Part shown: one piece after another, positions 9,848 through 28,155 of the stretch
Position numbering within the stretch: the stretch's first letter is position 1
Layout: every line of letters begins with the position of its first letter
Assembly (NCBI RefSeq): GCF_019402665.1
Contig: NZ_VSST01000089.1
Location: 62,001-126,000 of the forward strand
From: Bradyrhizobium canariense
GTDB taxonomy: Bacteria > Pseudomonadota > Alphaproteobacteria > Rhizobiales > Xanthobacteraceae
DNA: 64,000 nt
Reading direction: 5' to 3'
Position numbers and translations under genes: made by a program
Notes under the pieces: model-generated
The model's database searches: none
Told to the model about the DNA's origin: nothing
The model's input: only the letters and a program-made list of their open reading frames with translations

Positions 9848-10642
9848 TTAGCCATCCGACGGCAGCCCCTGCTCGATGCCGCGAAAGCGCAGCGGGGCCA
9901 GCGCGGAGGCGCGCTGCCACCAGTCGGCGACGCGATCGTCGAGCGCGGTCACACCTCGACCCTGACCGGGGAAGATCCGGATCTGCTGCACCGCCTCGGC
10001 TTCGAACCCCTTGCCCTTGCGGGTGATCTTGAGCGCGGCGCCTTCGCGGTCCCGCTGGGTCAGCGGCACCAGAAGGCGGCCGCGCGGACGAAGCGACCGA
10101 AGCCACAGCGGATGCGGCTGCGAGAAGCCGGCATGAACGATGATCACGTCGGCGGGCTCGCCGATGTCCTCGCATCCGTCGCCATGGACGACCGCGACGT
10201 TGCGATAGGCGCCAAGATAGGTTGCGGCCCGCGCCGCAAGCCGCTCGTCGCATTCGATTGCCTGCACCCTGCCCTTCGGGCCGACGATCTTCGACAGCAC
10301 GGCCGAGAAATAGCCGAGCCCGCAGCCGATCTGGACCACACGGTCTTTTTCCCCGACGTCGAGCAAATCGATGAAGTGCGCCCACAGGCTCGGCAGTCCG
10401 GTGTCGAGCTTGCGGCGCGCATCGATCGCGACCAGCACATTGTCCTGGAGATGAACGGGATCGGCATCCGGCGTCAGCCGATAGTTGCGCGCCGCCTCGC
10501 TCTTGATGCGCCACGGTCCCTTCGCCAGAAACTTTTCGCGCGGAACAGTGCCGAGGGCTTCGAGCAGGCGCGTTGAAGAGATCCGCTCGCGCCTTGCGAT
10601 CAGCCCCACGTAACGCGCACGCGCGGCGGCAAGATCGCTCAT
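9848..10642 (-). CDS. Protein-L-isoaspartate O-methyltransferase family protein
   Basis: 264-residue methyltransferase. I start it at the ATG at 10642, one base after the TGA of the upstream cyclase gene; the frame extends 9 codons farther but that would overlap the cyclase. Features: REKFLAKGPWRI (the PIMT N-terminal helix region), DPVHLQDNVLVAIDA, motif I VVQIGCGLGYFSAVLS, then AIECDERLA and ADVIIVHAGFSQ. PIMTs repair isoaspartate in damaged proteins. This member departs from the canonical substrate loop (SQPYIVA becomes LQDNVLV), so a different methyl acceptor is possible. Probably translated with the cyclase gene. Confidence 0.8.
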   Translation of the reverse strand: MSDLAAARARYVGLIARRERISSTRLLEALGTVPREKFLAKGPWRIKSEAARNYRLTPDADPVHLQDNVLVAIDARRKLDTGLPSLWAHFIDLLDVGEKDRVVQIGCGLGYFSAVLSKIVGPKGRVQAIECDERLAARAATYLGAYRNVAVVHGDGCEDIGEPADVIIVHAGFSQPHPLWLRSLRPRGRLLVPLTQRDREGAALKITRKGKGFEAEAVQQIRIFPGQGRGVTALDDRVADWWQRASALAPLRFRGIEQGLPSDG

Positions 10643-10643
10643 C

Positions 10644-13600
10644 TCAGGGATCGGCCTGTTCACGAACAAGCGCGCCCGCGCCGAGCTCGTCGATCAGTTG
10701 CATCGCCTGTTTCAGGTCCGGCGTGGAGAAGCCCTCGCTGAACTTGCCGAGGATCGGTACGAGCAGGAGACGAGCGTGCTCGCGCTTGCCGCCTTCGTGC
10801 GACAGGCGCGCGAGGCTGACGGCGGTGCGAAGCTCCCAGGACAGCGCGCCCTGCTTGCGCGCGATCTCCAGCGACAGGTTGAACAGGTCCTCGGCCTCCT
10901 GCACCGAGGCCGGATTCCCGTCCGACAGGGTGATCTCGCCTTGCAGGCGGTAGACTTCGGCGAGGTAGGAGTGGTCGCCGGTCCGTCTTGCGGTCGCGAG
11001 CGCACCGTCCAGCGCGCGCAAGGCGGCATCGCGCATCCCGACCTTGGCGTAGGCCTCCGCAAGCAGGCAGCGAAACCAGCAGCCGGCGAGCCAGGAATCC
11101 ATCGCTTCGTATTCGTCGAGGCCGAACCGCATCTGGCTGAGGCCTTCGTCGGCCTCGCCGAGCTGCGCCAGCGCCCAGCCGCGCAGGATCGCCGCCTGCT
11201 GCTTCCAGTGCAGGAAGTTGTGCTCGGTGGCGATGATCATGGCACGGTTGGCGTGGTCGCGCGTGCCCTCGACATCGCGCAAATGCTGGCAGAGATAGGC
11301 GCCGAACACGAGCGCGAAGGCGAGCGTGAAGGGGTGGCGGATCTTCTCGGCGTTCGCGATCGCCTGCTCGCTGTGCTGGCGCGCCGCGTCGGGCCGGCCG
11401 AGGAACCACAGCAGATAGCCGAGATAGGACAGCGAGACGACGCCGGGATCGGTGCCGTGCCGCTCCATCAGATCGGAGTGCAGGTCGGGGCTGTAGAGGT
11501 CGATGCAGCGGTGCAGATGATGCTGGGACGCGGCAAAGCGCCCGCGATAGAGCATGGTCATCGCGATCGAGCGATGCGCCTCGATCAGATAGCCGGTCTG
11601 CTGCGCCGGCTGTGTCCCCTCGTTCAGCCGCTCGCGCTTGGCGAACTTCAACAGCTCGACGCTGAGATCGTGCGCGCGGGTCAGATCGGCGCGGATGAAA
11701 TGACAGACCCAGAGCCCGCGCGTGGCGGCGAAGGCCTTTTCGTCGTCGTCGAGCTGCTGGCCGAGTTCGAGGGCGCGAACGTAGTTCTCCTCGACCTCCT
11801 GCACGGCATAGCCCTTGGCGGCGATCAGCGCGTTGCCGAGCGCGATGCGCAGTTCGAGCTCCATCTCGTCGGCGCCCTGCATGCGCGCATTGGCCTGCAC
11901 GACGCTGAGGCCGCGGCCCAGATGCCCGATCGCCTCCAGATTGGCGCCACTCTTGGCCGCCTGCTTGCCGGCCTTGAGCCAGAAGCTGGCGGCGCTCTCG
12001 CTCTGGCCGGATTCGGTCATATGATGGGCGAGCAACTCCGGTTCGCGCTCGGTCTTCTCGGGATACATCTCGGCGAGCACCTGGGCGATCCGGGAATGCA
12101 GCTTGCGCCGCTCGCTGTGCAGCAAGCTCGCATGCGCGGCGTTCTGAATCATCACGTGCTTGAAGGAGTAGAGCGCGTCGGGCGGATGGCCGCGGCGCAT
12201 GATCAGTCCGGCCTCCTCCAGATGATTGAGCGCGGCCTCGATCTGTTCGGCGGGTGTGTTGGCGACCGCGTGCAGAGTCTCATAGGAGAATTCGCGGCCG
12301 ATAGTGGCGCCGATCTGCGCGATCCGCTTGAACGGCCCCATCCGGTCCAGCCGCGCCATCAGCGAGTCCGTCAGCGTCGCCGGGATCGCAAGCTGCCGCC
12401 ACGGGCCCGACAGGACGTAGCGCCCGTGCCGTTCGGTCAGGAGGTTGGATTCGAGAACCGTCTTGGTCAGCTCCTCCAGGAACAGCGGCACGCCGTCGGT
12501 CTTGACGATGATCTCCTCGATGACCTCCTTGGGAAGCTCGCGTCCCGCCACGCGCTCGACCAGCGTCGCGCGCAACTGCCGGCTCAACCGGCTCAGCACC
12601 AGGGTCGTGATATGCGAATGGGCGTTCCAGCTCGGCTGGAATTCGGTGCGCGCGGTGATGATGACCAGGATTGCCCGGTTCTGTGCCCGATCGACCAGGA
12701 GATCGATCACCTCACGGGACGTCGGGTCGATCCAGTGCAGATCCTCGAATGCGATCACCAGCGGCTGCTCGCGCGCAAGGCCGAGGAAATGATTGACCAG
12801 CGCCGCGACGGTCGCATCCTTTTGCTGCTGCGGCGACAGCTCCAGTGGCGGATAGCGGTCACCGGTCGGAATGGACAACAGCGCGGCAAGCAGCGGCGCA
12901 ACCTGCTCGATGTCGCCATGAGCGGCAGCGATCGCGGTCTCCAGGCTCGCCAGCGACTGCACGGACGCATCCTCGCGATCGAGACCGAGAGAGTATTTGA
13001 GCTGCTCGGCGAACGGATAGAACGCCGTGGAGGTGTAATAGGGCGAGCACTGGAACGAGACCTGTCCATGGCGGTCACCGGCGATCCGTTCGAAGATTTC
13101 CTGGATGATGCGCGACTTGCCGATGCCGGGCTCGCCGAACTTGACCACGACCTGGCCCTCGCCCTCCTTGGCCTGCTGCCAGCGCCCCATCAGCAGCGCA
13201 ATCTCCTCCTCGCGGTTGACGAGCGGGGTCAGCCGCGTGCCCATCGCGGCGGCGAAGCGGGTCTCCACCCGCGAGGCGCGCATCACGTGCCAAGCCTGGG
13301 CCTTCTCCGAGATGCCCTTCAGCGCGTGGACGCCGAGATCGCGGTAGTCGAACTTCCCCTTCAGCAGCGACTGGGTCGACGTGGAAATCACCACGCCGTT
13401 GGGCGGCGCCAGACTTTGCAGCCGCGCGGCGAGATTGACGGTTTCTCCGACCGCGGAGTCGCGCTCTTCGGTGCCCTGTCCGACGAGGTCCCCAACCACG
13501 ACGAGACCGGTCGCGATGCCGATGCGGACGGCGGGTGAGTGGCTGAGCGCACCACGTGGCTCGATCGCGCGGGCGGTCGACAGCACCCGGACGATTTCCA

Positions 13601-14108
13601 GCCCCGCTCGCACGGCGCGCTCGGCGTCGTCCTCATGTGCGGTCGGATAGCCGAAATAGACCAAAATACCGTCCCCGACGAAGCGGGCGGCAAAACCTTC
13701 GTAATGCTTCACCACGCGGACACAGGTTTCGCGGAAGCTCGCGATCATGTCGCGCACGTCTTCCGGATCGAACTGCACCGAAAGCGAGGTGGAATCCACC
13801 ATGTCGCAGAACATGGTGGTGAGCTGACGCCGCTCGGCGCCGACCTCCGTCCGGACTTGCGGGCGCGCCGTGGCGTCGGGCTTTTCAGCGGTTTCGGCCC
13901 GGAACAACGCGGTCATGGCTCGCTGGAGCCGCTTCCGATCGCCGAGCGGCAATCCAAGCTCGACGAGATCGGATTCGGTCAGGTCTCCCATGACGTCGAG
14001 ATCGAGACGGTGCTGCGCGAAGAGATCGGTATAGTGGCTAAGACCGATACCCTCGAGCCAGCGCTTCAGCCCGCCTTCCGCTCCCGTGCCCGGCTCATTC
14101 TCCAGCAT
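10644..14108 (-). CDS. SAM domain - class III nucleotide cyclase - AAA ATPase - TPR signalling protein
   Basis: 1154-residue soluble protein. Order of parts: a sterile-alpha-motif domain (about 14-70, WLEGIGLSHYTDLFAQHRLD); a class III cyclase domain (about 93-270) with FCDMVDST and FVGDGILVYFGYP holding the two metal-binding Asp; an AAA/STAND-type ATPase with Walker A GEPGIGKS and Walker B VIAFEDLHWIDPTS; and about 500 residues of TPR-like helices. Such proteins make cAMP or act as scaffolds under control of the ATPase. The cyclase's adenine-selecting residues cannot be judged here. It is divergent from the NRPS gene over a 142-bp gap, so the two could share control. Confidence 0.88.
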   Translation of the reverse strand: MLENEPGTGAEGGLKRWLEGIGLSHYTDLFAQHRLDLDVMGDLTESDLVELGLPLGDRKRLQRAMTALFRAETAEKPDATARPQVRTEVGAERRQLTTMFCDMVDSTSLSVQFDPEDVRDMIASFRETCVRVVKHYEGFAARFVGDGILVYFGYPTAHEDDAERAVRAGLEIVRVLSTARAIEPRGALSHSPAVRIGIATGLVVVGDLVGQGTEERDSAVGETVNLAARLQSLAPPNGVVISTSTQSLLKGKFDYRDLGVHALKGISEKAQAWHVMRASRVETRFAAAMGTRLTPLVNREEEIALLMGRWQQAKEGEGQVVVKFGEPGIGKSRIIQEIFERIAGDRHGQVSFQCSPYYTSTAFYPFAEQLKYSLGLDREDASVQSLASLETAIAAAHGDIEQVAPLLAALLSIPTGDRYPPLELSPQQQKDATVAALVNHFLGLAREQPLVIAFEDLHWIDPTSREVIDLLVDRAQNRAILVIITARTEFQPSWNAHSHITTLVLSRLSRQLRATLVERVAGRELPKEVIEEIIVKTDGVPLFLEELTKTVLESNLLTERHGRYVLSGPWRQLAIPATLTDSLMARLDRMGPFKRIAQIGATIGREFSYETLHAVANTPAEQIEAALNHLEEAGLIMRRGHPPDALYSFKHVMIQNAAHASLLHSERRKLHSRIAQVLAEMYPEKTEREPELLAHHMTESGQSESAASFWLKAGKQAAKSGANLEAIGHLGRGLSVVQANARMQGADEMELELRIALGNALIAAKGYAVQEVEENYVRALELGQQLDDDEKAFAATRGLWVCHFIRADLTRAHDLSVELLKFAKRERLNEGTQPAQQTGYLIEAHRSIAMTMLYRGRFAASQHHLHRCIDLYSPDLHSDLMERHGTDPGVVSLSYLGYLLWFLGRPDAARQHSEQAIANAEKIRHPFTLAFALVFGAYLCQHLRDVEGTRDHANRAMIIATEHNFLHWKQQAAILRGWALAQLGEADEGLSQMRFGLDEYEAMDSWLAGCWFRCLLAEAYAKVGMRDAALRALDGALATARRTGDHSYLAEVYRLQGEITLSDGNPASVQEAEDLFNLSLEIARKQGALSWELRTAVSLARLSHEGGKREHARLLLVPILGKFSEGFSTPDLKQAMQLIDELGAGALVREQADP

Positions 14109-14250
14109 GGTGATTCCGCCCGACCAATCACTCCGTCGAAGGGCTTAGGGCCCCGCAACCACAGATTTTGGGGCCAAAACTTCACCTCAGACTGGACGCG
14201 TTCCCTAACTTCTTGGAAGAATAGCCCAATCGGATCAAAAGGGAACGGAA
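14109..14250. promoter_or_regulatory. Divergent promoter region cyclase/NRPS with TTTTGG-N2-CCAAAA dyad
   Basis: 142 bp separate the divergent cyclase and NRPS starts. Bases 14166-14179 read TTTTGG-GG-CCAAAA, a perfect dyad that could bind a dimeric regulator acting on both genes. No sigma-54 or clear sigma-70 boxes were recognised. Confidence 0.45.
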
Positions 14251-17200
14251 TTGTCGGACGCCACACGCCCAGCGCCGCAGGAATTGGCCGGCACGACGGC
14301 CGAAACGGAGATATTCGCGGATATCGGCGGTCTTCTCGATTTCCATGCCCGCAAGACGCCGGCGGCCCCCGCCCTCCTCGCCCCCGGCCGGCCGGTCCTC
14401 AACTACGGCGGGATTGGCGCGCGGACGCAGGATCTCGTCCGCACGCTGCGCGGGTTTGGCATCGCCCCTGCCGACCGCATTGCGGTTGCGCTGCCGCGCG
14501 GTGCCGACAGCGCACTGGCCCTGATCGCGGTCGCCTCGAGCTGCGCTTGCGTCCCCGTCAATCCCGATCTGACGGCGGACGAGCTGCAACGCTATTTCAG
14601 CGAATTGAAGCTGACGGCGCTCGTCACCCGGGCCGACACGAACTCGGCGGCCCGCGATGTCGCCAAGGCGCTCGATATTGCCATGATCGATTTCGTGCCG
14701 GGGGCGCAAGACGATCTCGGCGGCTGCACGTTCGTCGGGCCGGCTGTTGGACCGGCGAGCAGCAGCGGCGCCTCGCGCGGCGACGACGACGCGTTCATCC
14801 TGCTGACCTCGGGCACCGCGGCGCGGCCGAAGATGGTGCCGCTGACGCATCGCAACGTATGTCTCTCCGCCTACAATGCCGGCCACGTGCTGTCGCTTGC
14901 GTCCCACGATCGTCTGCTCAACGTCCTGCCACTGTTTCACGCCCATGGTTTGATCTCCGGCCTGCTAACGGCGCTGGCCGCGGGCTCCAGCGTGATCTGT
15001 ACCGAGGATTTCGACGCAGCCTCCTTCTTCGGCTGGATGCGGCAGCTGCAACCGACCTGGTACACGGCCGTGCCGACCATCCATCGCGCGCTGCTGACGG
15101 CGGCGGAGGCCGACCCGGATCTTGCCCGATCGTCCTCGCTGCGCGTGATCCGCTCCGCCTCGGCGTCGCTTGCGCCTGCGATCCTCGACGGACTGGAGGC
15201 GACGTTCGGCGTTCCCGTGCTCGAAACCTACGGCATGACTGAGGCGGCCTCGCAGATCGCGGCCAACCCGTTCGAGCTGCGCAAGGTCGGATCGGTCGGC
15301 CGCGCCGCGGGCCCCGAGATCGCCATCATGGACGAGACCGGCCGCGCGCTCGCCAGCGGCGAGCACGGCGAGATCATGCTGCGCGGACCCAATATGAGCC
15401 ACGGCTACTATAATGACGAGGCGGCGACGCAGGCCGCATTCCGCAACGGTTGGTTCCGGACCGGCGATCTCGGCTATCTCGACGCCGACGGCTATCTCTT
15501 CATCGTCGGCCGTATCAAGGACGTCATCAACCGCGGCGGGCAGAAGATCTCGCCCCTGGAGGTCGAAGATGTCCTGCTCAGCCATCCGGCGGTGCTGGAG
15601 GCCGGCGTGTTTGCCGTCCCGCACCCGAAGCTCGGCGAGAACGTCGCCGCAATCGTGGTGCTGCGGCCGAATTCCGAGGCGACCTCGGACCAGTTGCGCC
15701 AGTTCGCCCGGAAACGGCTTGCGGCCTACAAGGTGCCGAGCCTGATCCGTAGCGTGGCGACGCTGCCGAAAGGCGCCAGCGGCAAGGTCAAGCGCAATGC
15801 GCTGGCCGAGCTGATCGCAACAATGGGCGGCGGCGAGGAGGAGGAGGCCCGTCTGCCGCGCAACGCGCTGGAGACTGAGCTCGCCGGGATCTGGGCCAAT
15901 TTGCTGGAGCTGCCACAGGTCGGGGGCGATCAGGACGTCTTTGCGCTGGGTGCGGACTCGCTCGCGGTGACGCAGATGCGCTCGCGCCTGCGCGAACGCT
16001 TCAATGTCGATTTCTCGTTCGAGGACGTTTTCGATTGCGCCACGCCCGCCGCGCTTGCGGCCCGGATCGAGACCGCTGCAACCCATCGCGAAACGATGCT
16101 GCCGGCCTGGCGCCAGGCCGGGGAAGCAGACGCGCCGCTGTCGTTCCAGCAGCAGCGGATGTACGTGCTCTCGCGGCTCGACCCCACGCGCTACAATTAT
16201 AACGTCGTCGAAGTCGCGCTCCTCAAGGGTGGGCTCGATGTCGCCGCACTTTCTGCGAGCCTTGCCGCGGTCTCTGCCCGCCATGAGGCGTTGCGGTCGG
16301 TCATCATCGAACGCGAGGGCGAGCCGGTGCAGCTTGTGCTGCAATCGCCGCCGCAGTTCGAGCGGATCAAGCTCAAGCCCTGCCCGGCGGACAAGCGGGC
16401 CGCTGTTGTCAGGCGCGAAGCGCTCCGGCTCGCGCAACATCCGTTCGACCTTGCGCACGAGGCGCCGCTGAAGGTCACGCTGCTCTCGTTCGACAAGAGC
16501 AGCCACGCGCTCGTGGTCAACGTCCATCATCTCGTCACCGACGGCTGGTCGCAGCGACTGTTCTGGGAAGAACTCGCCGCCCATTATTCGGCAGCGCGCA
16601 AGAACGACGTGGCAACACTGCCTGCGCCCGCCTTCCAGTACCGCGACTTTGCGCTCTGGCAGCAGAGCTGGGCCAAGACGCCGGCGGCCAAGGAGCAGCT
16701 CGATTACTGGCGGACGCAACTGGACGGCGTCACCACGCTGCCGCTGCGGACCGACCGGCCAAGGCCGGAGGTCTGGAGCGGCCACGGTGCCCGTCACTAT
16801 CTCGAATTCTCCAAGACTCTGTCGGCCGACTTGCGTGCGCTGAGCCAGAACCAGGGCGTCACGCCCTTCATGACCCTGCTCGCAATGTTCCAGTGCCTGC
16901 TGTTCCGTCACACCGGACACGAGGATGTCGCGACGGGATCGCTGATCGCCAACCGCAACCAGATCGAGAGCGAGCGCCTGATCGGACTGTTCGCCAACAG
17001 CCTGATCCTGCGCAATGATTTCGGCGGCGATCCGAGCTTCGGCGACATGTTGCGCCGGGTCCGGCAGGTCACGCTCGATGCCTATCGCAACCAGGACCTC
17101 CCGATCGAAGAGGTCCTGCGCGCGCTTCAGATCGCGCGAAGGAGCGACGGCAATCCGCTGTTCCGGATCATGTTCATCCTCCAGAACGCCTCGATTGAGG

Positions 17201-20200
17201 CGGCACGATTCTCCGGTCTGTCGACGCGGCGGATCGAGATCGATCCACAAGTGGCGCGATTCGACATCACGCTCGAACTGGTCGAGGCCGACGGCCGTTT
17301 CACCGGCTTCTTCGAATACGCCACCGATCTGTTCGACGCGGCGACGATCGAGGGCATGGCCGCTCAGTTCAGAACCCTGCTCAAATCCGTCATCGCCGAT
17401 CCGGAGCAGCGCATCTCGCACCTGCCACTCCTGAGCGAGACCGAACGCCGGCAGCTGCTGGCGCAGGGCCGGGGCGTGCCGGCCGATTTCGCCACGCGCG
17501 GCAATTTGAGCGAAGGTTTCGACCGCCAGGTCAAGAAGACGCCGAACGCGATCGCCGTGTCGGACGGCCGCACATCCGTGAGCTACCGCGAGCTGGCGCG
17601 CCGCAGCCAGGCGGTCGCGCGCTGGCTCACCCTCGAAGGCGTCGGCGCCGAGACCGTGGTCGCCTTGCTTGCAGATCGCGGGGCCGACCTGCTCGCCGCG
17701 ATGATCGCCGTGCAACGCGTGGGCGCCGCCTTCCTCAATCTCGATCCCGACCAGCCGCCGGCACGGCTCGCAACCATCCTCGGATCGAGCGGCGCCCGCA
17801 TGCTGCTGACCGGACGGTCGCAGTCGTCCATGGCGGAGGGGCTGCTCGAACCGCTGGTCGAGCGCCTTCAGGTGGCCGAGCTCGAGGACGCGATCGCGCC
17901 GGCGTCGACCAAGCCGGCCCGTGCAACGCGGCGCGCGGCTTCGAGCCTTGCCTATCTCATCTACACTTCCGGGTCATCCGGCGCGCCGAAGGGCGTCATG
18001 ATCGAGCAGCGCGGGCTTTCGAACCATCTGGCCTCGCTCATCTCCGAGCTGAAACTCACGTCCCGGGACGTGATCGCGCAGACCGCGCCGCAGAGTTTTG
18101 TCATCTCGGTGTGGCAGTTCCTCGCGGGGCCCATGGTCGGTGCGCGGGTCCATGTGTGCGGTACCGCGATCGTGCAGGACCCGATTTTGCTCGCGCGCGA
18201 GATCGAGCGCGAGGGCATCACGGTGCTCGAGATCGTCCCATCGCTGCTGCGTGTGATCCTCGATCGCATGGACGAGGCACAGGTCCGACGCGCCTTTGCG
18301 AGGCTGCGCCTTCTGATCTCGACGGGCGAACCGCTGCCCGTCGATCTCTGCAAGGCCTGGTTCGCCCGCTGTCCGAAAGTGCCGCTGATCAACGCCTATG
18401 GTGCCTCGGAATGTTCCGACGACGTCTCGCTGCATCGCCTGACCAGGGCACCGACGACCCGGACGGGCAACGTCCCGGTCGGCGCGCCGCTGCCGAATAC
18501 CCAGCTCTACGTGCTCGACGCAAGCCTGCAGCCGCAGCCGGTCGGCGTGACCGGCGAGCTCTGCATCGGTGGCGCCGGTGTAGGCCGCGGCTATGTCAAC
18601 GACCCCGCGCAGAACCGGCAGCGCTTCCTGCCCGATCCGTTCTCGCGCAAAGCAAGCAGCCGGCTGTACCGGACCGGCGATCTCGCCCGCCGCCGCGCCG
18701 ACGGAACGATCGAATGCCTCGGTCGCGCCGACCATCAGGTCAAGGTTCGCGGCTACCGTATCGAGCTCAAGGAGATCGAGAACGCGCTTGCCGACCATCC
18801 CAGTGTGCGCGCCGGCATCGTCGAGCCGCGCCGCGAAGCAACCGGCGATGTCAGGCTGATTGCCCATATCGTCGCAAGATCGGGCAGCCGGAGCAGCGCC
18901 AGCGAGCTGCGCGACTTCCTGCAGAGCCGGCTGCCGGGCCATGCCATCCCCTCCGCGTTCCTGTTCCTGGATCAGGTGCCGCTCAATGCCCATGGCAAGA
19001 TCGACCGCACCGCGCTGCTGGCGCCGGCGCAGCAGGAAACGTCCGGACCGGATGCGGCCGTGCCGGCGCGGCGCTTCACCGAAAAGGTGCTGTCCGACAT
19101 CTGGATCGACCTGCTGAAGATCGAGAGCCTCGGCGTCACCGATAATTTCTTCGACCTCGGCGGTCATTCGCTGCTGGCGGGCCAGGCGATGGCGCGCATC
19201 GCTCGGGCGCTCGGCGTGTCGCTGCCGATCAAGACCATCTTCGAGGCACCGACGATCGACGAGCTTGCCCGGCGGGTCGACGAGGCCGTGGCGGCAAAGC
19301 CGCGCAAGCCGGCCGCAAGTTTCGCAAGGCTGGCTACAGCGAGCCTGGCCGAAGGCAGCCCTCCCACGCTCTCGATCGCGCAGGACCAAATGCTGCGGAT
19401 CGAGCAGAATCTTTCGGGTTTGCCGCTGTTCAACCTGCCTTTCGCCTTCCGTCTCCAGGGGCCGCTCAATCTGGCCGCCCTGGCGCAGACGATCGACGAC
19501 ATCGTGCGCCGGCACGAATCGCTGCGGACCCATTTCGGCTGGAGCGGCGGGGAGCCCGTCAGCCACGTCGCCGCGCCCGGCGCCCTCGGCCGTGTCATGA
19601 GTGTCGAGACGATCGGCGACGGTCAGCCCCACAACAACAAGCGGCGCAAGGCGCTGGAGCTCCGCAAGATCGATCTCCTGATCGAACAGGAGACCTATGT
19701 CCCGATCGACACCACGCGCGCGCCGCTGCTGCGCGCCCGGCTGTTGCGGCTCCACGATGACGATCACGTCTTGCTGCTGACGCTGCACCACGCCGTCGTG
19801 GATGGCTGGTCGATCGGCGTGCTGTTCGAGGAATTATCCAACCGTTATGCGGCGCTGGCCGGATACCCATCGGTGCCGCTGCCGAAACCGCCGCCGGCCT
19901 TTTCGGATGTAGCGCGCTGGCAGCGCTGGTGGTGCGGCACCGATGCCGCCCGCCATCAGGCGGCCGACTGGACGGAGAATTTGCGCGGGGCGCCTCCCCT
20001 CTTCGAGGGCGGATCAAGTCCGGGCCCGTCCAGGGGGCACCATCTCGTCAGCCTGGATCGTGAGCTGATCGGCCGGCTCGCGGCTTTCGCCGGCCAGCAC
20101 AATTGCACGCTGTTCATGTGTCTGCTGACCGGCTTGAAAGCCGTGCTGCTGGCGCGGACCGGCCGCCACGACATCTCGATCGCCACCGCCATGGCCAATC

Positions 20201-20709
20201 GCGCCCAGCCGGACACCGACCGGATCGTCGGTCCGTTCGAGAACACGGTGATCGTTCGCACCAAAATCACGCCGGAGCTGTCGTTCGTGCAGGCCGTGGT
20301 CCGGGTCCGCCAGAGCGTGCTTGACGCGCATGCGCGCCAGGAGCTGCCGTTCAACATCCTGGCCGACCATCTGGAGCAGGAGGGGGTCAATCCAGCCTCG
20401 CTGCTCCAGGTCTATTTCACCCTGCAAAATCCGCTGCGCCAGCCGCTCGATTTGCCTGATCTCACGACAGGATCGATCGGCAACATCGCCCGCGAAGGCC
20501 AGCCGGTGCTGCCGATCGACCAGACCTGGCTGTCGCTGATGCTCAAGGAGCGGCCGACGGGAATCACCGGTTCATGCAACTACAAGAGCGAGCTGCTCGA
20601 CCGCGCTACGGTCGGCCAGTGGATGGAGTATCTCGTCGCGCTGCTCGGGGCGGCCCTCGCCCAACCCAACGCACCACTCGGCCGATTGCTCAATCGCAGG
20701 GCGGCATGA
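14251..20709 (+). CDS. Non-ribosomal peptide synthetase, A-T-C-A-T-C, no thioesterase
   Basis: 2152 residues from a TTG at 14251 behind AAAAGGGA. Order: A1 (about 20-530; LLTSGTAARPKMVPLTHRN at 184, TGDLGYLD, GGQKISPLEVED); T1 with GADSLAV, Ser570; C1 (about 628-1060) with HHLVTDG, His759-His760-Asp764; A2 (about 1085-1590) with YTSGSSGAPKG; T2 with GGHSLLAG, Ser1640; C2 (about 1705-2140) with HHAVVDG, His1846-His1847-Asp1851. A1 lacks amino-acid A-domain motifs; LPLFHAHGL and TWYTAVPTIHRALL recall oxalate-CoA ligases, so it may load a small acid. In A2 the Asp that normally holds the alpha-amine is Val1284 (SFVISVWQ). No epimerase, thioesterase or reductase follows C2; release may be by condensation with a free amine. 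Product unknown. Confidence 0.9.
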   Translation: MSDATRPAPQELAGTTAETEIFADIGGLLDFHARKTPAAPALLAPGRPVLNYGGIGARTQDLVRTLRGFGIAPADRIAVALPRGADSALALIAVASSCACVPVNPDLTADELQRYFSELKLTALVTRADTNSAARDVAKALDIAMIDFVPGAQDDLGGCTFVGPAVGPASSSGASRGDDDAFILLTSGTAARPKMVPLTHRNVCLSAYNAGHVLSLASHDRLLNVLPLFHAHGLISGLLTALAAGSSVICTEDFDAASFFGWMRQLQPTWYTAVPTIHRALLTAAEADPDLARSSSLRVIRSASASLAPAILDGLEATFGVPVLETYGMTEAASQIAANPFELRKVGSVGRAAGPEIAIMDETGRALASGEHGEIMLRGPNMSHGYYNDEAATQAAFRNGWFRTGDLGYLDADGYLFIVGRIKDVINRGGQKISPLEVEDVLLSHPAVLEAGVFAVPHPKLGENVAAIVVLRPNSEATSDQLRQFARKRLAAYKVPSLIRSVATLPKGASGKVKRNALAELIATMGGGEEEEARLPRNALETELAGIWANLLELPQVGGDQDVFALGADSLAVTQMRSRLRERFNVDFSFEDVFDCATPAALAARIETAATHRETMLPAWRQAGEADAPLSFQQQRMYVLSRLDPTRYNYNVVEVALLKGGLDVAALSASLAAVSARHEALRSVIIEREGEPVQLVLQSPPQFERIKLKPCPADKRAAVVRREALRLAQHPFDLAHEAPLKVTLLSFDKSSHALVVNVHHLVTDGWSQRLFWEELAAHYSAARKNDVATLPAPAFQYRDFALWQQSWAKTPAAKEQLDYWRTQLDGVTTLPLRTDRPRPEVWSGHGARHYLEFSKTLSADLRALSQNQGVTPFMTLLAMFQCLLFRHTGHEDVATGSLIANRNQIESERLIGLFANSLILRNDFGGDPSFGDMLRRVRQVTLDAYRNQDLPIEEVLRALQIARRSDGNPLFRIMFILQNASIEAARFSGLSTRRIEIDPQVARFDITLELVEADGRFTGFFEYATDLFDAATIEGMAAQFRTLLKSVIADPEQRISHLPLLSETERRQLLAQGRGVPADFATRGNLSEGFDRQVKKTPNAIAVSDGRTSVSYRELARRSQAVARWLTLEGVGAETVVALLADRGADLLAAMIAVQRVGAAFLNLDPDQPPARLATILGSSGARMLLTGRSQSSMAEGLLEPLVERLQVAELEDAIAPASTKPARATRRAASSLAYLIYTSGSSGAPKGVMIEQRGLSNHLASLISELKLTSRDVIAQTAPQSFVISVWQFLAGPMVGARVHVCGTAIVQDPILLAREIEREGITVLEIVPSLLRVILDRMDEAQVRRAFARLRLLISTGEPLPVDLCKAWFARCPKVPLINAYGASECSDDVSLHRLTRAPTTRTGNVPVGAPLPNTQLYVLDASLQPQPVGVTGELCIGGAGVGRGYVNDPAQNRQRFLPDPFSRKASSRLYRTGDLARRRADGTIECLGRADHQVKVRGYRIELKEIENALADHPSVRAGIVEPRREATGDVRLIAHIVARSGSRSSASELRDFLQSRLPGHAIPSAFLFLDQVPLNAHGKIDRTALLAPAQQETSGPDAAVPARRFTEKVLSDIWIDLLKIESLGVTDNFFDLGGHSLLAGQAMARIARALGVSLPIKTIFEAPTIDELARRVDEAVAAKPRKPAASFARLATASLAEGSPPTLSIAQDQMLRIEQNLSGLPLFNLPFAFRLQGPLNLAALAQTIDDIVRRHESLRTHFGWSGGEPVSHVAAPGALGRVMSVETIGDGQPHNNKRRKALELRKIDLLIEQETYVPIDTTRAPLLRARLLRLHDDDHVLLLTLHHAVVDGWSIGVLFEELSNRYAALAGYPSVPLPKPPPAFSDVARWQRWWCGTDAARHQAADWTENLRGAPPLFEGGSSPGPSRGHHLVSLDRELIGRLAAFAGQHNCTLFMCLLTGLKAVLLARTGRHDISIATAMANRAQPDTDRIVGPFENTVIVRTKITPELSFVQAVVRVRQSVLDAHARQELPFNILADHLEQEGVNPASLLQVYFTLQNPLRQPLDLPDLTTGSIGNIAREGQPVLPIDQTWLSLMLKERPTGITGSCNYKSELLDRATVGQWMEYLVALLGAALAQPNAPLGRLLNRRAA

Positions 20710-20850
20710 CCGGCCGTACAGCACGGGCGAATACGGGGTCACCCGTCAAAGCTGTGAATGACCAAGTTGCATCTTGATTATTTGGCGCCATCGCGCAAGA
20801 TTATTCTCGCGTTTTGATTTGGACGATTATTTTCAACCGGGGAGTTCGTT
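20710..20850 (+). promoter_or_regulatory. Region between NRPS and 57-aa gene: small dyad and three GATTATT copies
   Basis: 141 bp. ACGGG-GTCA-CCCGT (20733-20746) is a short perfect hairpin 24 bp after the NRPS stop. GATTATT then occurs three times, at 20776, 20799 and 20825, in an AT-rich tract unlike the GC-rich surroundings. A promoter or regulator-binding array for the small gene is likely, but no clean -35/-10 pair was found. Confidence 0.4.
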
Positions 20851-21024
20851 ATGGGTTTCATCAAATTTACCAAGGGCACCTCGTTGAGTGACAAGGACCG
20901 CAAGGCCCTGCAGAAGTTGCTCGGTGCCGAGAAGAAGAAGCTGCAGTCCGCGCTGAAGGACGTCGACGCCAGCATTTCGATGCTGGGCGGCTCCAAGAAG
21001 TCCAAGAAGAAGAAGAAGACGTAA
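20851..21024 (+). CDS. 57-residue lysine-rich small protein in the NRPS locus
   Basis: ATG at 20851 is preceded by GGGGAG with 6-bp spacing, a strong ribosome site, and the frame ends at TAA 21022-21024. Of 57 residues, 16 are Lys. It starts MGFIKFTKGTSLSDKDRKAL, continues as a likely amphipathic helix (residues about 12-45, with KKKLQSALKDVDASISML), has a Gly-Gly turn at 46-47, and ends KKSKKKKKT. There is no signal peptide or cysteine, and it is not MbtH-like. I do not recognise the family. Its place between an NRPS and its phosphopantetheinyl transferase suggests a linked role, for example nucleic-acid or polyanion binding, or serving as an amine acceptor; these are guesses. Confidence 0.72.
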   Translation: MGFIKFTKGTSLSDKDRKALQKLLGAEKKKLQSALKDVDASISMLGGSKKSKKKKKT

Positions 21025-21057
21025 GACTCGTCGGCCGGGACGCCGCACGAATCTTCA

Positions 21058-21084
21058 GGCTTCAGTTTTCGGGCTTCAGTTTTC
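21058..21084. repeat. Direct repeat GGCTTCAGTTTTC x2
   Basis: The 13-mer GGCTTCAGTTTTC occurs at 21058-21070 and 21072-21084, a 14-bp period. It lies just after the 57-residue gene, in the leader of the phosphopantetheinyl transferase gene. Confidence 0.8.
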
Positions 21085-21171
21085 AGATTTGGCCGCTCGC
21101 CTGTCGAGTTGGGGTCTCGCACAAGCTTGCGCCCGTAAACCGGCCAGCAATCGACAAGGATTCGCCGGAGT

Positions 21172-21190
21172 GGACCGCTAGAAGCGGTCC
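21172..21190. promoter_or_regulatory. Perfect 8-bp stem hairpin (GGACCGCT-AGA-AGCGGTCC)
   Basis: GGACCGCT (21172-21179), loop AGA, AGCGGTCC (21183-21190). It ends directly at a tandem 15-bp repeat and lies 80 bp before the phosphopantetheinyl transferase start. There is no T-tract, so it may be a transcript-stabilising or translation-control element, a weak terminator for the small gene, or an operator. Confidence 0.55.
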
Positions 21191-21220
21191 GCTCAGTTGA
21201 TTCTTGCTCAGTTGATTCTT
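21191..21220. repeat. Perfect tandem duplication of a 15-bp unit
   Basis: GCTCAGTTGATTCTT occurs twice without a gap, at 21191-21205 and 21206-21220, immediately downstream of the hairpin at 21172-21190. Exact tandem repeats of this kind usually reflect recent slippage or a spaced binding site. Confidence 0.85.
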
Positions 21221-21269
21221 CCGTCATGGCAGGGGATTTGGCCCCGGCCTGACGCCATGGGCCCAATTG

Positions 21270-22001
21270 ATGGCAGACGACAGAATTGAACTGTTTGTCG
21301 GACTGATCGAGACTTTTGACGCGCCGGATGCGGTTGATACGTGCCGGCGCCTGCTCTCGGTCGACGAACGGGTACGAGCCGACCGCTTCGTGTTCGAGCG
21401 GCACCAGCGACAGTATATTTTCGCGCACGCGATGTTGCGCCTTGCGCTCTCCCACGTCGCACCTGAGGTCGCACCGACCGACTGGTCATTTGCGGCCGGG
21501 CGTTACGGGCGGCCGTTTGTCGCATCGCCCAAGACCTCGAGCACGCTGCATTTCAGCCTGTCGCACGCCGACGGCTGCGTCGCCTGCGTCGTGTCAGGGC
21601 ATGAGACCGTCGGCGTCGACGTCGAGACCGTGTCGCGTCGGGTGGCGCCGCTGTCGACCGCGCTTCGGTTCTTCGCGCCGGAAGAGGTCGAAGCGCTGCG
21701 CGGGCTGCCGGAGCCCGCCGCGACCGAGCGCTTCTTCGACTACTGGACGCTGAAAGAAGCCTATCTGAAGGCCAGAGGTTTCGGCCTCAATTTGCCGCTC
21801 GACGCCTTCGCCATGCAGGTATCTCGCGAGGCCATCGAGATCAGCTTCAAGCCCGATATCGCCGACGATCCGCAAGGGTGGCGATTCCAGCTGATCTCGC
21901 CGTCGCCCTCGCATCGTCTCGCGATCGCCGACGGCTCCCGCGCCAGCGGCGGCCTTCCCATCACGCGCAATGCGTGGCCGCTGCAGGAGGCAGCTGAATG
22001 A
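21270..22001 (+). CDS. 4'-phosphopantetheinyl transferase, Sfp/Gsp type
   Basis: 243 residues. It transfers phosphopantetheine from CoA to the Ser of carrier domains, here most likely Ser570 and Ser1640 of the NRPS. Both family motifs are present: GVDVE (115-119, with metal ligands Asp117 and Glu119) and FFDYWTLKEAYLKARG (Lys162, Glu163, Lys167). The N-terminal half has the expected LHFSLSHADGCV (CoA-binding His). The ATG at 21270 is preferred; a TTG directly before it is in frame. Its stop overlaps the start of the monooxygenase gene (ATGA), so the two are translationally coupled. At 243 residues it is of usual Sfp length. Confidence 0.92.
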   Translation: MADDRIELFVGLIETFDAPDAVDTCRRLLSVDERVRADRFVFERHQRQYIFAHAMLRLALSHVAPEVAPTDWSFAAGRYGRPFVASPKTSSTLHFSLSHADGCVACVVSGHETVGVDVETVSRRVAPLSTALRFFAPEEVEALRGLPEPAATERFFDYWTLKEAYLKARGFGLNLPLDAFAMQVSREAIEISFKPDIADDPQGWRFQLISPSPSHRLAIADGSRASGGLPITRNAWPLQEAAE

Positions 22002-22975
22002 CGCCGCGGCTGCGTGTCTTTCCCGCGATTTCGCGCAACCGCGACCCAAAGAAATATGTCGGTGAGTTGATGCGAGTGGCGCAGTTCGCCGACCGCAACG
22101 GCTTCGAAGGCATCCTGCTGTTCGAAGGCAACGACGTGTTCGTCGAGCCCTGGGCGATGGCCCAGCACATCATCGGCGAGACGACCCGGTCCTCGCCGCT
22201 GATCGCGGTCAATCCGGTCTATATGCACCCGTTCACGGCGGCAAAATTCGTCTCGTCGTTTGCGCAACTCCACGGCCGCAAGGTCTATCTCAACATGATC
22301 ACGGGGACGGCGGTCAGCGATCTGCAGGGGCTGGGCGACGAGCAGTCCCATGCCGACCGCTATGTCCGGCTCGGCGAATTCGTTGCGCTGATGCGCCAGT
22401 TGCTGGCAAGCCCGCGGCCGGTCACTTTCGAGGGCCGGTTCTACCGCGCCAGCAACCTGCAACTGCGGCCGCGCCTGCCGCCGGAGCTGATGCCGGAATT
22501 TCTGGTCGCGGGCCAGTCCGAGCCGGCACAGCGCGCCGCAAAGGAGACCGGCTGCATCAAGATGCAGATGCTGCCGCCCGATCTCGACCGCGGCCTCGAC
22601 GCGCCGGGCGTGAATTTTGGAATCTTCGCCCGCGAGGGACGCGACGAGGCACGGCAAGCGGCAAAGGCGCGTTTCCGCGATAATGCCGACGATCGCGAGC
22701 TGCTCGTGCTCACCGTGGAGAACAGCGATTCCGTGTGGAAACGGCGCCTCTACGAAGGCCAGAGCGGCGAGTTCGCGGACAATGGCTATTGGCTGCTGCC
22801 GTTCCTGACCTTCCAGGCCGACTGCCCCTACCTCGTCGGCAGCTACGCGGAGATCGGCGCGAAGCTGAAGGAGTTTGCCGCGAAGGGGCTGACCACGATC
22901 ATGCTCGACATGGTCGCAGACGAGACCGAGATGCAGCACGTCTGCAAGGCGCTCGCGGCAAGCGGGATGTTTTGA
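21998..22975 (+). CDS. Luciferase-like (LLM) flavin-dependent monooxygenase
   Basis: 325-residue FMN-dependent oxidoreductase of the bacterial luciferase/SsuD fold. Seen: ISRNRDPKKYVGELMRVAQFADRNGFEG at the start (first beta-alpha unit; quoted in part), FVSSFAQLHGRKVYLNMITG, RYVRLGEFVALMRQLL, and EFLVAGQSEPAQRAAKETG, typical of the alkanesulfonate monooxygenase branch. Its ATG overlaps the PPTase stop by 4 bp. Coupling with an Sfp-type PPTase and the NRPS upstream suggests that it oxidises the peptide or a carrier-bound intermediate rather than sulfonates, since no sulfonate transporter is near. The reaction is not predictable in detail. Confidence 0.88.
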   Translation: MTPRLRVFPAISRNRDPKKYVGELMRVAQFADRNGFEGILLFEGNDVFVEPWAMAQHIIGETTRSSPLIAVNPVYMHPFTAAKFVSSFAQLHGRKVYLNMITGTAVSDLQGLGDEQSHADRYVRLGEFVALMRQLLASPRPVTFEGRFYRASNLQLRPRLPPELMPEFLVAGQSEPAQRAAKETGCIKMQMLPPDLDRGLDAPGVNFGIFAREGRDEARQAAKARFRDNADDRELLVLTVENSDSVWKRRLYEGQSGEFADNGYWLLPFLTFQADCPYLVGSYAEIGAKLKEFAAKGLTTIMLDMVADETEMQHVCKALAASGMF

Positions 22976-22997
22976 GATCGAATTATCAAGGAAGTGC

Positions 22998-23140
22998 CTC
23001 TTCTCCCTCTCCCCGTTCTTACGGGGAGAGGGTCGGGGTGAGGGGCTCTCTCTGCGGGCGAGATATGCCAGAGACCTGTACCCCCTCACCCGGAATTTGC
23101 TCGCGCAAATTCCGACCTCTCCCCGCAAGCGGGGAGAGGT
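22998..23140. repeat. Intergenic repeat with CTCTCCCCG/CGGGGAGAG stems
   Basis: Two hairpins, CCTCTCCCCGT with ACGGGGAGAGG (about 23006-23031) and CCTCTCCCCGC with GCGGGGAGAGG (23116-23139), enclose a spacer. Another copy of the same family lies at 29778-29937. Here it fills the gap between the convergent monooxygenase and deacetylase genes and could end both transcripts. Confidence 0.8.
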
Positions 23141-23145
23141 AAACT

Positions 23146-24171
23146 TCACCGCGCCTCTTCGAATCCGGCCAGCACGGAAGTCAGGTTCGCGCCGAGGATA
23201 TCCGAGAGATAGCCGCCCTCCTGCACGAACACGGTCGGCAGGCCCATCTTTGCGATGGCCTGGCCGATGCGGCGAAAGCCGGGCGTGGTGACGGCGAGAC
23301 CCTTCAGCGGATCGTGCTCGGAGGCGTCGAGGCCGAGCGCGATGACGAGAGCACCGGGCGCGAAGGACTCGATTGCCCTGCGCGCAACGTCCATCGCCTG
23401 CATGTAGCCGTCATCGCCGGTACCGATCGCCAGGGGAATGTTGAGATTTGTGCCGAGGCCGGGACCTTCGCCGCGCTCATGCGCGTAGCCCCACACGTAA
23501 GGATAATATGCGACGGGATCGGCATGGATCGAGACCGTGTAGACGTCCGGCCGCGCGTAAAAGATTCCTTGCGTGCCGTTGCCGTGATGGACGTCGACGT
23601 CGAGGATCACGACGCGCTCGTGCTTCTGCCGCAGATGCGCCGCCGCGATCGCGCTGTTGTTGAGGAAGCAGAAGCCGCCGGCCATGTCGCGATAGGCGTG
23701 ATGACCGGGCGGACGGCAGAGCGCATAGGTCGCGTCCTCGCCGTCCATCACCATCTGTGCCGCGGTGACCGCGACGTCGGTCGCGGCGCAGGCCGCAGCC
23801 CAGGTGCCCGGGCCGATCGGCGCCGCGGTGTCGGCGGTGTGCCAGCCGAGCTTGCCGGTGATATGGGTGGGATAAGTCGCGGCATGGCGCACCGGATGGA
23901 TGTTGCCGATCATCTCCGGGCCGGAATCGCCGAGCGCGGTCCATTCCTCCCAGGCCTCGCTCAGGAACGACAGATATTCCGGACTATGGATGCGCGCACG
24001 CGGCCCCTGCCCGAATGTGGTTGGCTCGACCAGTTGGTGCTTGCCGTCCTTGAGCCCTTTGAGCAGGCGGTCGGCACGTTCGGGCTGCTCGGTGGTGCGC
24101 TTGACCACACCGCGAACCAGGAAGAATTGCGGATCGTGGCTGCGATGCAGCTCGGTATGGACGGCTTTCAC
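23146..24171 (-). CDS. Histone-deacetylase superfamily protein, acetylpolyamine amidohydrolase-like
   Basis: 341 residues from a GTG at 24171 (MKAVHTELHRSHDPQFF) with GGAG 7-8 bp upstream; the frame could extend 11 codons to another GTG. Zinc-dependent deacylase features are complete: RPPGHHAYRDMAGGFCFLNN (the tandem His pair), VVILDVDVHHGNGTQ (zinc ligands Asp and His), and LDASEHDPLKGLAVT with the third ligand Asp. The N-terminal region and HDP insert fit the class II acetylpolyamine amidohydrolases (AphA), which deacetylate acetylputrescine or acetylspermidine. Acetoin utilisation proteins are the main alternative. Several amine-catabolism genes lie downstream in the window. Confidence 0.87.
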   Translation of the reverse strand: MKAVHTELHRSHDPQFFLVRGVVKRTTEQPERADRLLKGLKDGKHQLVEPTTFGQGPRARIHSPEYLSFLSEAWEEWTALGDSGPEMIGNIHPVRHAATYPTHITGKLGWHTADTAAPIGPGTWAAACAATDVAVTAAQMVMDGEDATYALCRPPGHHAYRDMAGGFCFLNNSAIAAAHLRQKHERVVILDVDVHHGNGTQGIFYARPDVYTVSIHADPVAYYPYVWGYAHERGEGPGLGTNLNIPLAIGTGDDGYMQAMDVARRAIESFAPGALVIALGLDASEHDPLKGLAVTTPGFRRIGQAIAKMGLPTVFVQEGGYLSDILGANLTSVLAGFEEAR

Positions 24172-24297
24172 TCGAACACTCCGTGGTCGCTTTGAGGGTG
24201 CCACAGATGTCTAAATCCCCGCGGCGGCGAGATGCAAGCAAGAAGAATGCCGTCCCTTTCGCACCGCCCTGCGCCTGAAGCAGATCGCTCGTGAAGC

Positions 24298-25239
24298 TCA
24301 GCAACGCCCGCGCTGAAGGCAGTGCTCGCGGCCCTGCTGGTCGGTGCGGAAGGACTCGACGAAGCCGCCCTGACGCTGGGTGACGAAAATCGTCTTGCCG
24401 TCGCTACCGCCGAAGGCAAGGTTTGTCGGCTCCTTGGCCCTCAGCGCGATCTCCCGCTCGACCGCGCCATTGGCCTTCATCAACGTGATGGTGCCCTTGA
24501 GGATGCGCGCGACATAGAGGCGGCCAGCCATGTCGGTGCGCAGGCCATCGACGCTGTCGGGCTGAAACGCCTTGACGAGTTTTGGACTGGTGAGCTCGTT
24601 GCCGCCGATCGTGTAGGACCAGATCTGGCCGCTGCTGGATTCCCCGACATAGAGCGTCTTGTCATCGGGGCTGAGATCGATGCCGTTGGTGGTGCCCATC
24701 GCGCGCGGCGCCGACATGAGCTGTCCCTGCACCGTTCCGTCGGCTTCCTTCGCGATGCGCCAGATATGGCCTTCGCGACCTTTCCAGTTCGGATCACTCG
24801 CGTAGATCGTGCCGTCGCGGGCGATGGTGATGTCGTTGGGCTGGTTCATCTCGTCGGAGTGAAACCAGATGGCGGGCTCGGTCGATCCCTTCGGGATCGC
24901 GAAGATGTTGTGCTTCTTGTAGTCGGCGATGAACATGGTGCCGTCGCGCGCGAAGCGGATGGCATTGCCGACGCTGCCATCGGGCAAAGCCGTGAACGGC
25001 TCGGACGCCGCGCCGCCGACAGGCAGCTTGCCGATGGTGCCGGGCTTGCCGAAATTGACAACGAAGAGATTGCCGTTGAGATCGGCGGCCGGGCCTTCGA
25101 TGCCAAACGTGTATTCGCCTGATGGCGTCACCTGCACGCTTTCGAACAGTTTTGTTTCCGCTCGTGCCGGTGCCGTCGCAAGGACGAGAACAACGCTACT
25201 GCACAGGCACCAGAAATTCCTGCCGGATGTAATAGCCAT
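24298..25239 (-). CDS. SMP-30/gluconolactonase-like secreted beta-propeller
   Basis: 313 residues from the ATG at 25239 (MAITSGRNFWCLCSSVVLVL), whose signal peptide ends at ARA; an in-frame start at 25260 is possible. Repeated blades such as ADLNGNLFVVNFGKPGTIGK, NDITIARDGTIYASDPNW and GIDLSPDDKTLYVGES give the six-bladed SMP-30/gluconolactonase propeller. These are metal-dependent lactonases or hydrolases in the periplasm. The start lies inside the 3' end of the upstream dehydrogenase gene (overlap about 44 bp), so the two are translated together. A lactonase after a sugar dehydrogenase makes chemical sense: sugar to lactone to acid. Confidence 0.85.
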   Translation of the reverse strand: MAITSGRNFWCLCSSVVLVLATAPARAETKLFESVQVTPSGEYTFGIEGPAADLNGNLFVVNFGKPGTIGKLPVGGAASEPFTALPDGSVGNAIRFARDGTMFIADYKKHNIFAIPKGSTEPAIWFHSDEMNQPNDITIARDGTIYASDPNWKGREGHIWRIAKEADGTVQGQLMSAPRAMGTTNGIDLSPDDKTLYVGESSSGQIWSYTIGGNELTSPKLVKAFQPDSVDGLRTDMAGRLYVARILKGTITLMKANGAVEREIALRAKEPTNLAFGGSDGKTIFVTQRQGGFVESFRTDQQGREHCLQRGRC

Positions 25240-27268: not shown

Positions 27269-27474
27269 GGCGCCTCCCGGACTTTCCGTCCAGGGTTGTT
27301 CCATGCCGCGGGAACGCCGTCCAGTTGATCAACACCCCCTTGTGATCAAACCAGCAGGGGGCTTGGCGCCGACCAATCTCCGTAGATTCCCTTACCGGGC
27401 TCGACCCGAATGTTTCGCGAAGGCTTGGAATGGTATCGGTTTGCCGTCCCAATCGCTCCCAATAGGAGACGCAT

Positions 27475-27708
27475 ATGGTCCAGGTCTATTTTCACTGCTC
27501 CAATACCGAGGGCACGCTGATCGATCGCAGCGGCACAGCCGTGACCAACCTGACCGAGGCGCGCGACCGTGCCGCCCAGATCATGAACGCGATGATCCTG
27601 ACGCCCGGCGCTGAGGATTGGCGCGACTGGGTGATCCATGTCAGCGGCTCCGACGGCGAGGAGATCTTCGACCTCCCCTTCACTGCCATGCTCGGCAAGC
27701 CGCACTGA
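27475..27708 (+). CDS. DUF6894 family small protein
   Basis: 77-residue acidic protein (MVQVYFHCSNTEGTLIDRSG, later LTEARDRAAQIMNAMI and DWVIHVSGSDGEEIFDLPF). This matches the DUF6894 pattern, a short beta-beta-alpha-beta domain frequent in Bradyrhizobium and Methylobacterium, often in many copies per genome and of unknown function. AGGAG at 27463-27467 precedes the ATG. A second small gene follows after 9 bp, so both are likely on one transcript. Confidence 0.82.
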   Translation: MVQVYFHCSNTEGTLIDRSGTAVTNLTEARDRAAQIMNAMILTPGAEDWRDWVIHVSGSDGEEIFDLPFTAMLGKPH

Positions 27709-27717
27709 GGTGATGCC

Positions 27718-27894
27718 ATGTTGCTCGCGTCACTGACCCTGCTCCGCCAGCCCCTGAGCTTCGTCGCCGGCAAATGGCAGACGCTGATCCGGATCGCGGG
27801 CAATCCCTACCGGCCCGAGCTCCACTACATGCGCGGGCCTGGCCCGAAATGGCACGCCAAGTATCAGGCCAGCCGGCTGGATCGCGCGCGCTGA
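27718..27894 (+). CDS. 58-residue hypothetical protein
   Basis: ATG at 27718 lies 9 bp after the DUF6894 stop, with GAGG 6 bp upstream; stop TGA at 27892-27894. The product is basic (MLLASLTLLRQPLSFVAGKW at the start, then NPYRPELHYMRGPGPKWHAK) and has no signal peptide or cysteine. Coupling and spacing suggest a real gene co-expressed with the DUF6894 protein. Family not recognised. Confidence 0.6.
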   Translation: MLLASLTLLRQPLSFVAGKWQTLIRIAGNPYRPELHYMRGPGPKWHAKYQASRLDRAR

Positions 27895-27935
27895 GCTCTG
27901 CGGCTTCCGCTTCCCACTGATCGGTCTCTCGACTC

Positions 27936-28003
27936 GTGATGCCCGGGCATAGCCGTCCGAAGGACGGCGTCGCTTCCGCTCGCCTATGCCCCGGGCATTC
28001 ACG
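27936..28003. repeat. Intergenic palindromic repeat (GTGATGCCCGGGCATA type)
   Basis: GTGATGCCCGGGCATA (27936-27951) is complementary to TATGCCCCGGGCATTCAC (about 27985-28002) apart from one bulge and one extra base. The spacer holds GCCGTCC-GAA-GGACGGC, a second hairpin. This is a known-looking Bradyrhizobium repeat. It sits in the 261-bp gap before the gamma-glutamyltransferase gene. Confidence 0.75.
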
Positions 28004-28155
28004 CGTTGGCGCCTCCCCCGCCTGCTTCACACCAGCCATGTCGCGCCTCCCTTTCGATATTCTCGGTGGGGACGATGTGCCATTGTCCGCGCACTCCGCC
28101 GATTGCGGAGCTCAGCGCAACGAAGCCAAACCGAAGACAGCACACAGACATCATC

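Follow-up and report, generated by a model that had tools for sequence, protein, structure and literature searches.

A Bradyrhizobium non-ribosomal peptide synthetase with an acyl-ligase-type loader and a Dab-like second module: a candidate short acyl-amide synthetase

Two sets of described enzymes bear on the locus considered here. The first are ligases: the oxalyl-CoA synthetases AAE3/Pcs60 and the FadD7-type acyl-CoA ligases. The second are assembly systems in which a condensation (C) domain forms an amide. In rhabdopeptide synthesis a C domain serves as the amide-forming release step, and in that of the glidonins a C domain adds free putrescine within a termination module organized C-A*-T-TE (PMC10587159). 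The OaaA/OaaACP/OaaC proteins of Coprococcus make fatty-acyl amides of aminovalerate and GABA; according to the preprint, the activated acid is carrier-bound and a C domain joins it to the small omega-amino acid (PMC13142362). Chemistry of this sort therefore exists. The synthetase we describe draws, it seems, on both sets. Its loading domain (A1) is of the ligase lineage but is fused to carrier and C domains, and carries a serine in place of a family histidine and a smaller residue in the FHxHG loop. Its steps might resemble those of the Oaa system, except that the Oaa proteins are free-standing and have no second module; and its last domain, C2, is predicted to form an amide on release as the glidonin and rhabdopeptide C domains do, although C2 stands alone at the end of its chain, unlike the glidonin module.

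The DNA analysed (‘the window’) is a stretch of 64,000 nucleotides of Bradyrhizobium canariense, bases 62001–126000 of contig 145 in a genome of 8.56 Mb. Pfam finds two AMP-binding, two PP-binding and two Condensation domains in the synthetase (NRPS), and their positions along the single chain give the order A-T-C-A-T-C that the original prediction had described; the four genes that it placed on one strand are there too (Table 1), including the 57-aa Lys-rich protein, the Sfp-type PPTase, the LLM oxidoreductase and the ATGA overlap of the last two, at 21998–22001. Both carriers have their serine (GADSL in T1, GGHSL in T2). Among aligned rows at least 52% identical, the window included, HHxxxDG is intact in all 103 rows of C1 and all 99 of C2.

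Table 1. Features of the synthetase locus, in window coordinates
Feature	Position	Strand	Basis
PCMT-like SAM methyltransferase	9848..10669	-	Pfam, genome and locus counts
SAM-domain/nucleotide cyclase/AAA/TPR protein, divergent from NRPS	10644..14108	-	Pfam, NCBIfam; in 71/76 named loci
NRPS, 2152 aa, TTG start, A1-T1-C1-A2-T2-C2	14251..20709	+	ORF list, Pfam
A1 loading domain (residues 27-521), acyl-ligase type, of the oxalyl-CoA-synthetase/FadD7 lineage	14329..15813	+	NCBIfam, solved structures, tree
A1 Ser334; His in stand-alone relatives and three solved oxalyl-CoA synthetases	15250..15252	+	Alignment
T1 carrier domain	15853..16086	+	Pfam, alignment
C1 condensation domain, HHLVTDG	16129..17460	+	Pfam, alignment, tree
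A2 adenylation domain, code VIWEITADDK	17518..19038	+	Pfam, code alignment
A2 Val1284, code position 235; Asp in alpha-amino-acid A domains	18100..18102	+	Alignment
T2 carrier domain	19087..19278	+	Pfam, alignment
C2 condensation domain, last on the chain (no A, T, TE or R beyond it), HHAVVDG	19348..20700	+	Pfam, alignment
57-aa Lys-rich ORF, 16 Lys, no Pfam match	20851..21024	+	ORF list, Pfam
PPTase (Sfp/HetI-like), ACPS	21267..22001	+	Pfam, NCBIfam, genome counts
LLM oxidoreductase, Bac_luciferase	21998..22975	+	Pfam, NCBIfam, solved structures

That the NRPS frame is a product of chance is excluded by full-length homologues without internal stops, 62–100% identical among the matches listed. 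The copy in genome G039 (55% identity) has one TGA flagged, yet its locus, L101, holds a frame of 2156 aa. Bradyrhizobium is a genus of crop symbionts, and of 98 of its genomes 49 have the synthetase among the matches listed. Presence was hand-scored among the best matches listed, at full or nearly full length and at least 55% identity; two of the 49 are split (G046, G078), two match only to residue 1715–1717 (G064, G029), and a remnant in G040 brings the number to 50. Split or remnant copies occur in a few strains, at L080, at L100 and, in G078, on contig 1 near 3.33 Mb. Another 76 matches came from a named collection; the named and unnamed collections share members, so rows in the alignments are not to be equated with genomes. 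All 76 are labelled Bradyrhizobium save one, labelled Frankia sp. RB7 (L036): it is a Bradyrhizobium-type locus, with an NRPS of 82% identity and the usual neighbours, and the record is probably mislabelled or contaminated. A literature search found, by title or abstract opening, no paper on the locus, and no characterised cluster was matched in the searches run, in keeping with the earlier remark that no compound was known from such an architecture. The synthetase is thus a real family, spread through Bradyrhizobium, and one for which our searches give no sign of earlier characterisation.

We give a probability of about 0.45 to the following reading of its sequence: that the locus encodes a synthetase of short acyl amides. 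A1 would activate a carboxylic acid other than oxalate and load it onto T1. A2 would activate an omega-amino acid that has a gamma-amine but no alpha-amine—4-aminobutyrate (GABA) is the best guess—and load it onto T2, and C1 would join the two. C2, with neither carrier nor thioesterase downstream, would then hand over the chain, the acceptor being a small molecule with a free amine, to yield an N-acyl-(GABA-like) amide. Tailoring would fall to the methyltransferase and, optionally, to the LLM oxidoreductase, and the carriers might be primed by the nearby PPTase, though this is not tied to them.

The specificity code of A2 is VIWEITADDK in 93 family rows and VIWQITADDK in nine, with one-letter variants in two and VIWEITADD, the last place not reached, in two more. 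Lys517 is present in 104 of these 106 rows and the alignment stops short of it in the other two. Position 235 is valine in all 106, and aspartate in none. The nearest relatives of A2 outside Bradyrhizobium, among 398 genomes across the phylum, are 40–46% identical. All 15 of the A domains fetched from other genera carry Asp235, and the 10 closest of these, from other Pseudomonadota and 43–45% identical, have the code DIWELTADDK, which shares eight of its 10 residues with that of A2 and differs at positions 235 and 299 only. We take DIWELTADDK to be a code for 2,4-diaminobutyrate (Dab), though none of the texts searched prints this assignment. Two papers (PMC11355689, PMC12283262) describe Asp235 as conserved in alpha-amino-acid domains; one states that it contacts the alpha-amino group, the other that every such domain has it. 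In A2 it has been lost, and the acidic residues for a gamma-amine have been kept; together these suggest a gamma-amino acid that lacks an alpha-amine. Probably, then, A2 loads something GABA-like, of which GABA itself is the simplest, although a Dab-type pocket without Asp235 could instead admit a 2-hydroxy- or 2-oxo-4-amino acid. The product had been foreseen as dipeptide-like. This does not fit: A2 is the only domain that loads a residue after the acyl loader, and it is without the aspartate of alpha-amino-acid domains. A search of plasmids with A2 gave 92 records, every one below 60% identity.

More tentatively, the acyl-amide reading may be narrowed: a Dab-type domain that has lost Asp235 and kept its gamma-amine acids might load GABA itself, between a ligase-derived loader and an amine-releasing C domain, to make N-acyl-GABA amides that are possible signals in soil or nodule. 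If A2 does load GABA, it is a natural example of how one lost pocket contact turns an alpha- into a gamma-amino-acid domain, useful to those who engineer NRPSs, and a hint that legume symbionts make a class of small amides not known so far.

Of the alternatives, the one that survives best is that of an ordinary lipopeptide-type NRPS, in which the starter loaded by A1 is a fatty acid, A2 takes L-Dab, C2 is vestigial and release is hydrolytic. We think it unlikely. The kinship of A2 with domains whose code we take to be that for Dab speaks for it, as does the FadD7-like score of A1; the valine at position 235 in every one of the 106 rows speaks against it, and so does C2, whose HHxxxDG, intact in all 99 rows of 52% identity or more, argues that this is not a dead domain.

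What C2 does instead, on the acyl-amide reading, is suggested by its relatives. Bradyrhizobium also has short A-T-C proteins (about 1085 aa; L097, L098 and L099) related to A1-T1 and C2, with matches of this form in at least four of the 98 genomes. C2 is 44–45% identical to the C domain of these three proteins, and C1 31%. The C2s and the A-T-C C domains form one clade, with support of 100/100, in a tree that comprised 43 C domains, few of them from outside Bradyrhizobium (24 of the 25 loci chosen yielded rows). Both of the A-T-C proteins scanned have a single carrier domain, so the acceptor of their C domain is probably a free molecule; because C2 falls in the same clade, and no TE, R or T follows it on the chain, it too is suggested to release its product onto a free amine. 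The C tree puts neither the A-T-C form nor the longer NRPS first; in the A1 tree L101 falls with the A-T-C proteins (SH-aLRT 92).

A partner might be supplied from elsewhere. If C2 worked in trans with the carrier of another NRPS, the locus would build the start of a longer peptide, a possibility that we rate somewhat below the lipopeptide one. At least one further NRPS, a 1406-aa frame on contig 149, is encoded in the window’s genome, and one variant locus shows such a continuation: in L096 of B. nitroreducens (9968–29679) the NRPS ends after T2, as A1-T-C-A2-T, and is followed by the LLM, a C-A-T-TE protein with a Gly-like A domain, a polyketide synthase (KS-AT-DH-ER-KR-ACP) and one more C protein. 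Set against this are the clade that C2 shares with the A-T-C C domains and the single carrier of two of those proteins. Since L096 continues with C-A-T-TE and PKS proteins, the class of product varies. Two other loci, L081 and L084, share this NRPS form, the place of the LLM and the code of the second A domain, DILQ..VIWK, which is presumably Gly-like. The A1-T-C-A2-T core has been reused in the variant loci, and probably serves different products.

To return to the acyl-amide reading, and to its first step: A1 was said to be an acyl-ligase-type loader of the oxalate-CoA-ligase lineage, and this holds. The motifs first noted in A1, LPLFHAHGL among them, are there; TWYTAVP and FHxH are largely retained, and the closest solved enzymes are oxalyl-CoA synthetases (6qjz, 372 bits; 5ie0, 370; 8aff, 282), followed by an o-succinylbenzoate-CoA ligase at 210 bits. 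By HMM, A1 shows a likeness to the NCBIfam FadD7 equivalog, at 590 bits, under the curated cut-off of 650. The best-scoring paralogue of A1 in the window’s own genome is 32% identical. With a related A-T-C protein as query, 87 of 367 genomes of the class have a match at E <= 1e-100, two of them Bradyrhizobium; almost all the remaining matches are stand-alone ligases, 41–50% identical and mostly in frames of 500–650 aa. Gene neighbourhoods were listed for six stand-alone ligases as a possible guide to substrate, each ORF by its first 60 residues; three of the six (L160, L162 and L163) contain WYTAVPT. In a quick tree of 30 rows (31 loci chosen, 30 kept), a single clade (SH-aLRT 99) unites the A1 domains of the NRPSs with those of the A-T-C proteins, and the stand-alone ligases lie next to it.

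Two changes set this clade apart from the ligases. The histidine of MTEAxH is kept in the three solved enzymes and in all 13 stand-alone alphaproteobacterial ligases in which the position was read, of 85 matching genomes outside Bradyrhizobium; it is serine in 99 of 99 NRPS rows and threonine in the three A-T-C proteins. This histidine we take to be the oxalate contact in the plant oxalyl-CoA synthetase; a literature search, by title, found nothing on the oxalate contact residues. The loop FH(V/I)HG has become FHAHG in the NRPSs and FHGHG in the A-T-C proteins, and the smaller residue should widen the pocket. Oxalate is weakened as a candidate substrate by the change from histidine to serine, and A1 would take a changed, probably larger, acid. 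That A1 nonetheless loads oxalate, to give an oxalyl-amino acid (oxamic acid) compound, as its nearest solved relatives and the surviving TWYTAVP and FHxH motifs would favour, is improbable, the least likely of the alternatives, in view of the replaced histidine and the altered loop.

The four genes had been taken for a co-conserved unit, and as a whole they are not. Three of the 48 NRPS-free genomes (NRPS scored among the matches listed) have the PPTase at >=55% over most of its length (G011, G016, G072), and one of these (G072) the 57-aa ORF, as against 46 and 45 of the 50 with the NRPS. In two of those 46 the PPTase lies elsewhere in the genome (G029 and G064, the latter with the 57-aa ORF also away from the NRPS). 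PPTase hits at <=46% were dropped, as were partial pieces (in G073, and a second one in G007). From the 76 named loci the PPTase is missing in six and the ORF in seven. Found without the NRPS, displaced or missing, neither is its specific partner; it is the PPTase, not the NRPS, that the 57-aa ORF accompanies. The PPTase, which may start at ATG 21270, one codon past the listed TTG, could prime the T domains, though it is not NRPS-specific. Fisher tests of the association of these genes with the NRPS ignore kinship, and so overstate it.

The LLM gene is another matter, and its tie to the NRPS stands: all 44 genomes that have it (>=70% identity; hits at 38–39% in G004, G023, G042, G044 and G069 were dropped) also have the NRPS, one as a remnant, among the 50 with the NRPS, and none of the 48 others do, the NRPS again scored among the matches listed. 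It is absent from 10 of the 76 named loci. On the tree of 76 C1 domains its state changes four times—at least three if only well-supported branches are counted—and we read these changes as losses, while the NRPS stayed. A deep member, G654, with A2 at 57%, has no LLM match at E <= 1e-80. From the repeated losses and this absence, the LLM seems to be a dispensable tailoring enzyme. Among 385 genomes of the class two match it (E <= 1e-60), and among 248 of the family nine do (E <= 1e-80), all of them Bradyrhizobium; the genome samples are thin, so rare members elsewhere stay possible. The best solved match is to the alkanesulfonate monooxygenase SsuD, yet at only 70 bits, and against the SsuD NCBIfam models the protein scores 77 where the cut-offs are 510–518. 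Its AlphaFold model is weak, with a mean pLDDT of 62.6.

The closest companion of the NRPS is a gene that the original prediction overlooked. The PCMT-like methyltransferase (>=60%; hits at <=45% dropped) is in 49 of the 50 genomes with the NRPS and in none of the 48 others, by the same scoring among the matches listed; two of the 76 named loci lack it, both cut by contig ends. It is bound more tightly to the NRPS than the 57-aa ORF, the PPTase or the LLM. Mere inheritance as a block is argued against by L081, L084 and L096, which have no cyclase, PPTase or 57-aa ORF near the NRPS and in which the methyltransferase and LLM still adjoin it. Strict linkage is argued against by G039, which has no methyltransferase, and in which a flavoprotein gene sits between NRPS and LLM. 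As listed, the methyltransferase ORF begins within the cyclase ORF. Its product, perhaps a regulator, scores 550 bits against the TOMM kinase/cyclase fusion family, for which the cut-off is 706, and the gene is missing from five of the 76 named loci, two of these cut.

As for signals, no promoter-like sites were found in 20600–23200, and two terminator-like sites where 2.0 are expected. A GC-rich hairpin of 12 pairs lies at 21168–21194, in the gap that separates the 57-aa ORF from the PPTase gene. At the far end a gene for a histone-deacetylase-like protein (23146–24204, - strand) adjoins the locus; it is absent from 10 of the 76 named loci, two of them short at that end, and is likely a neighbour only.
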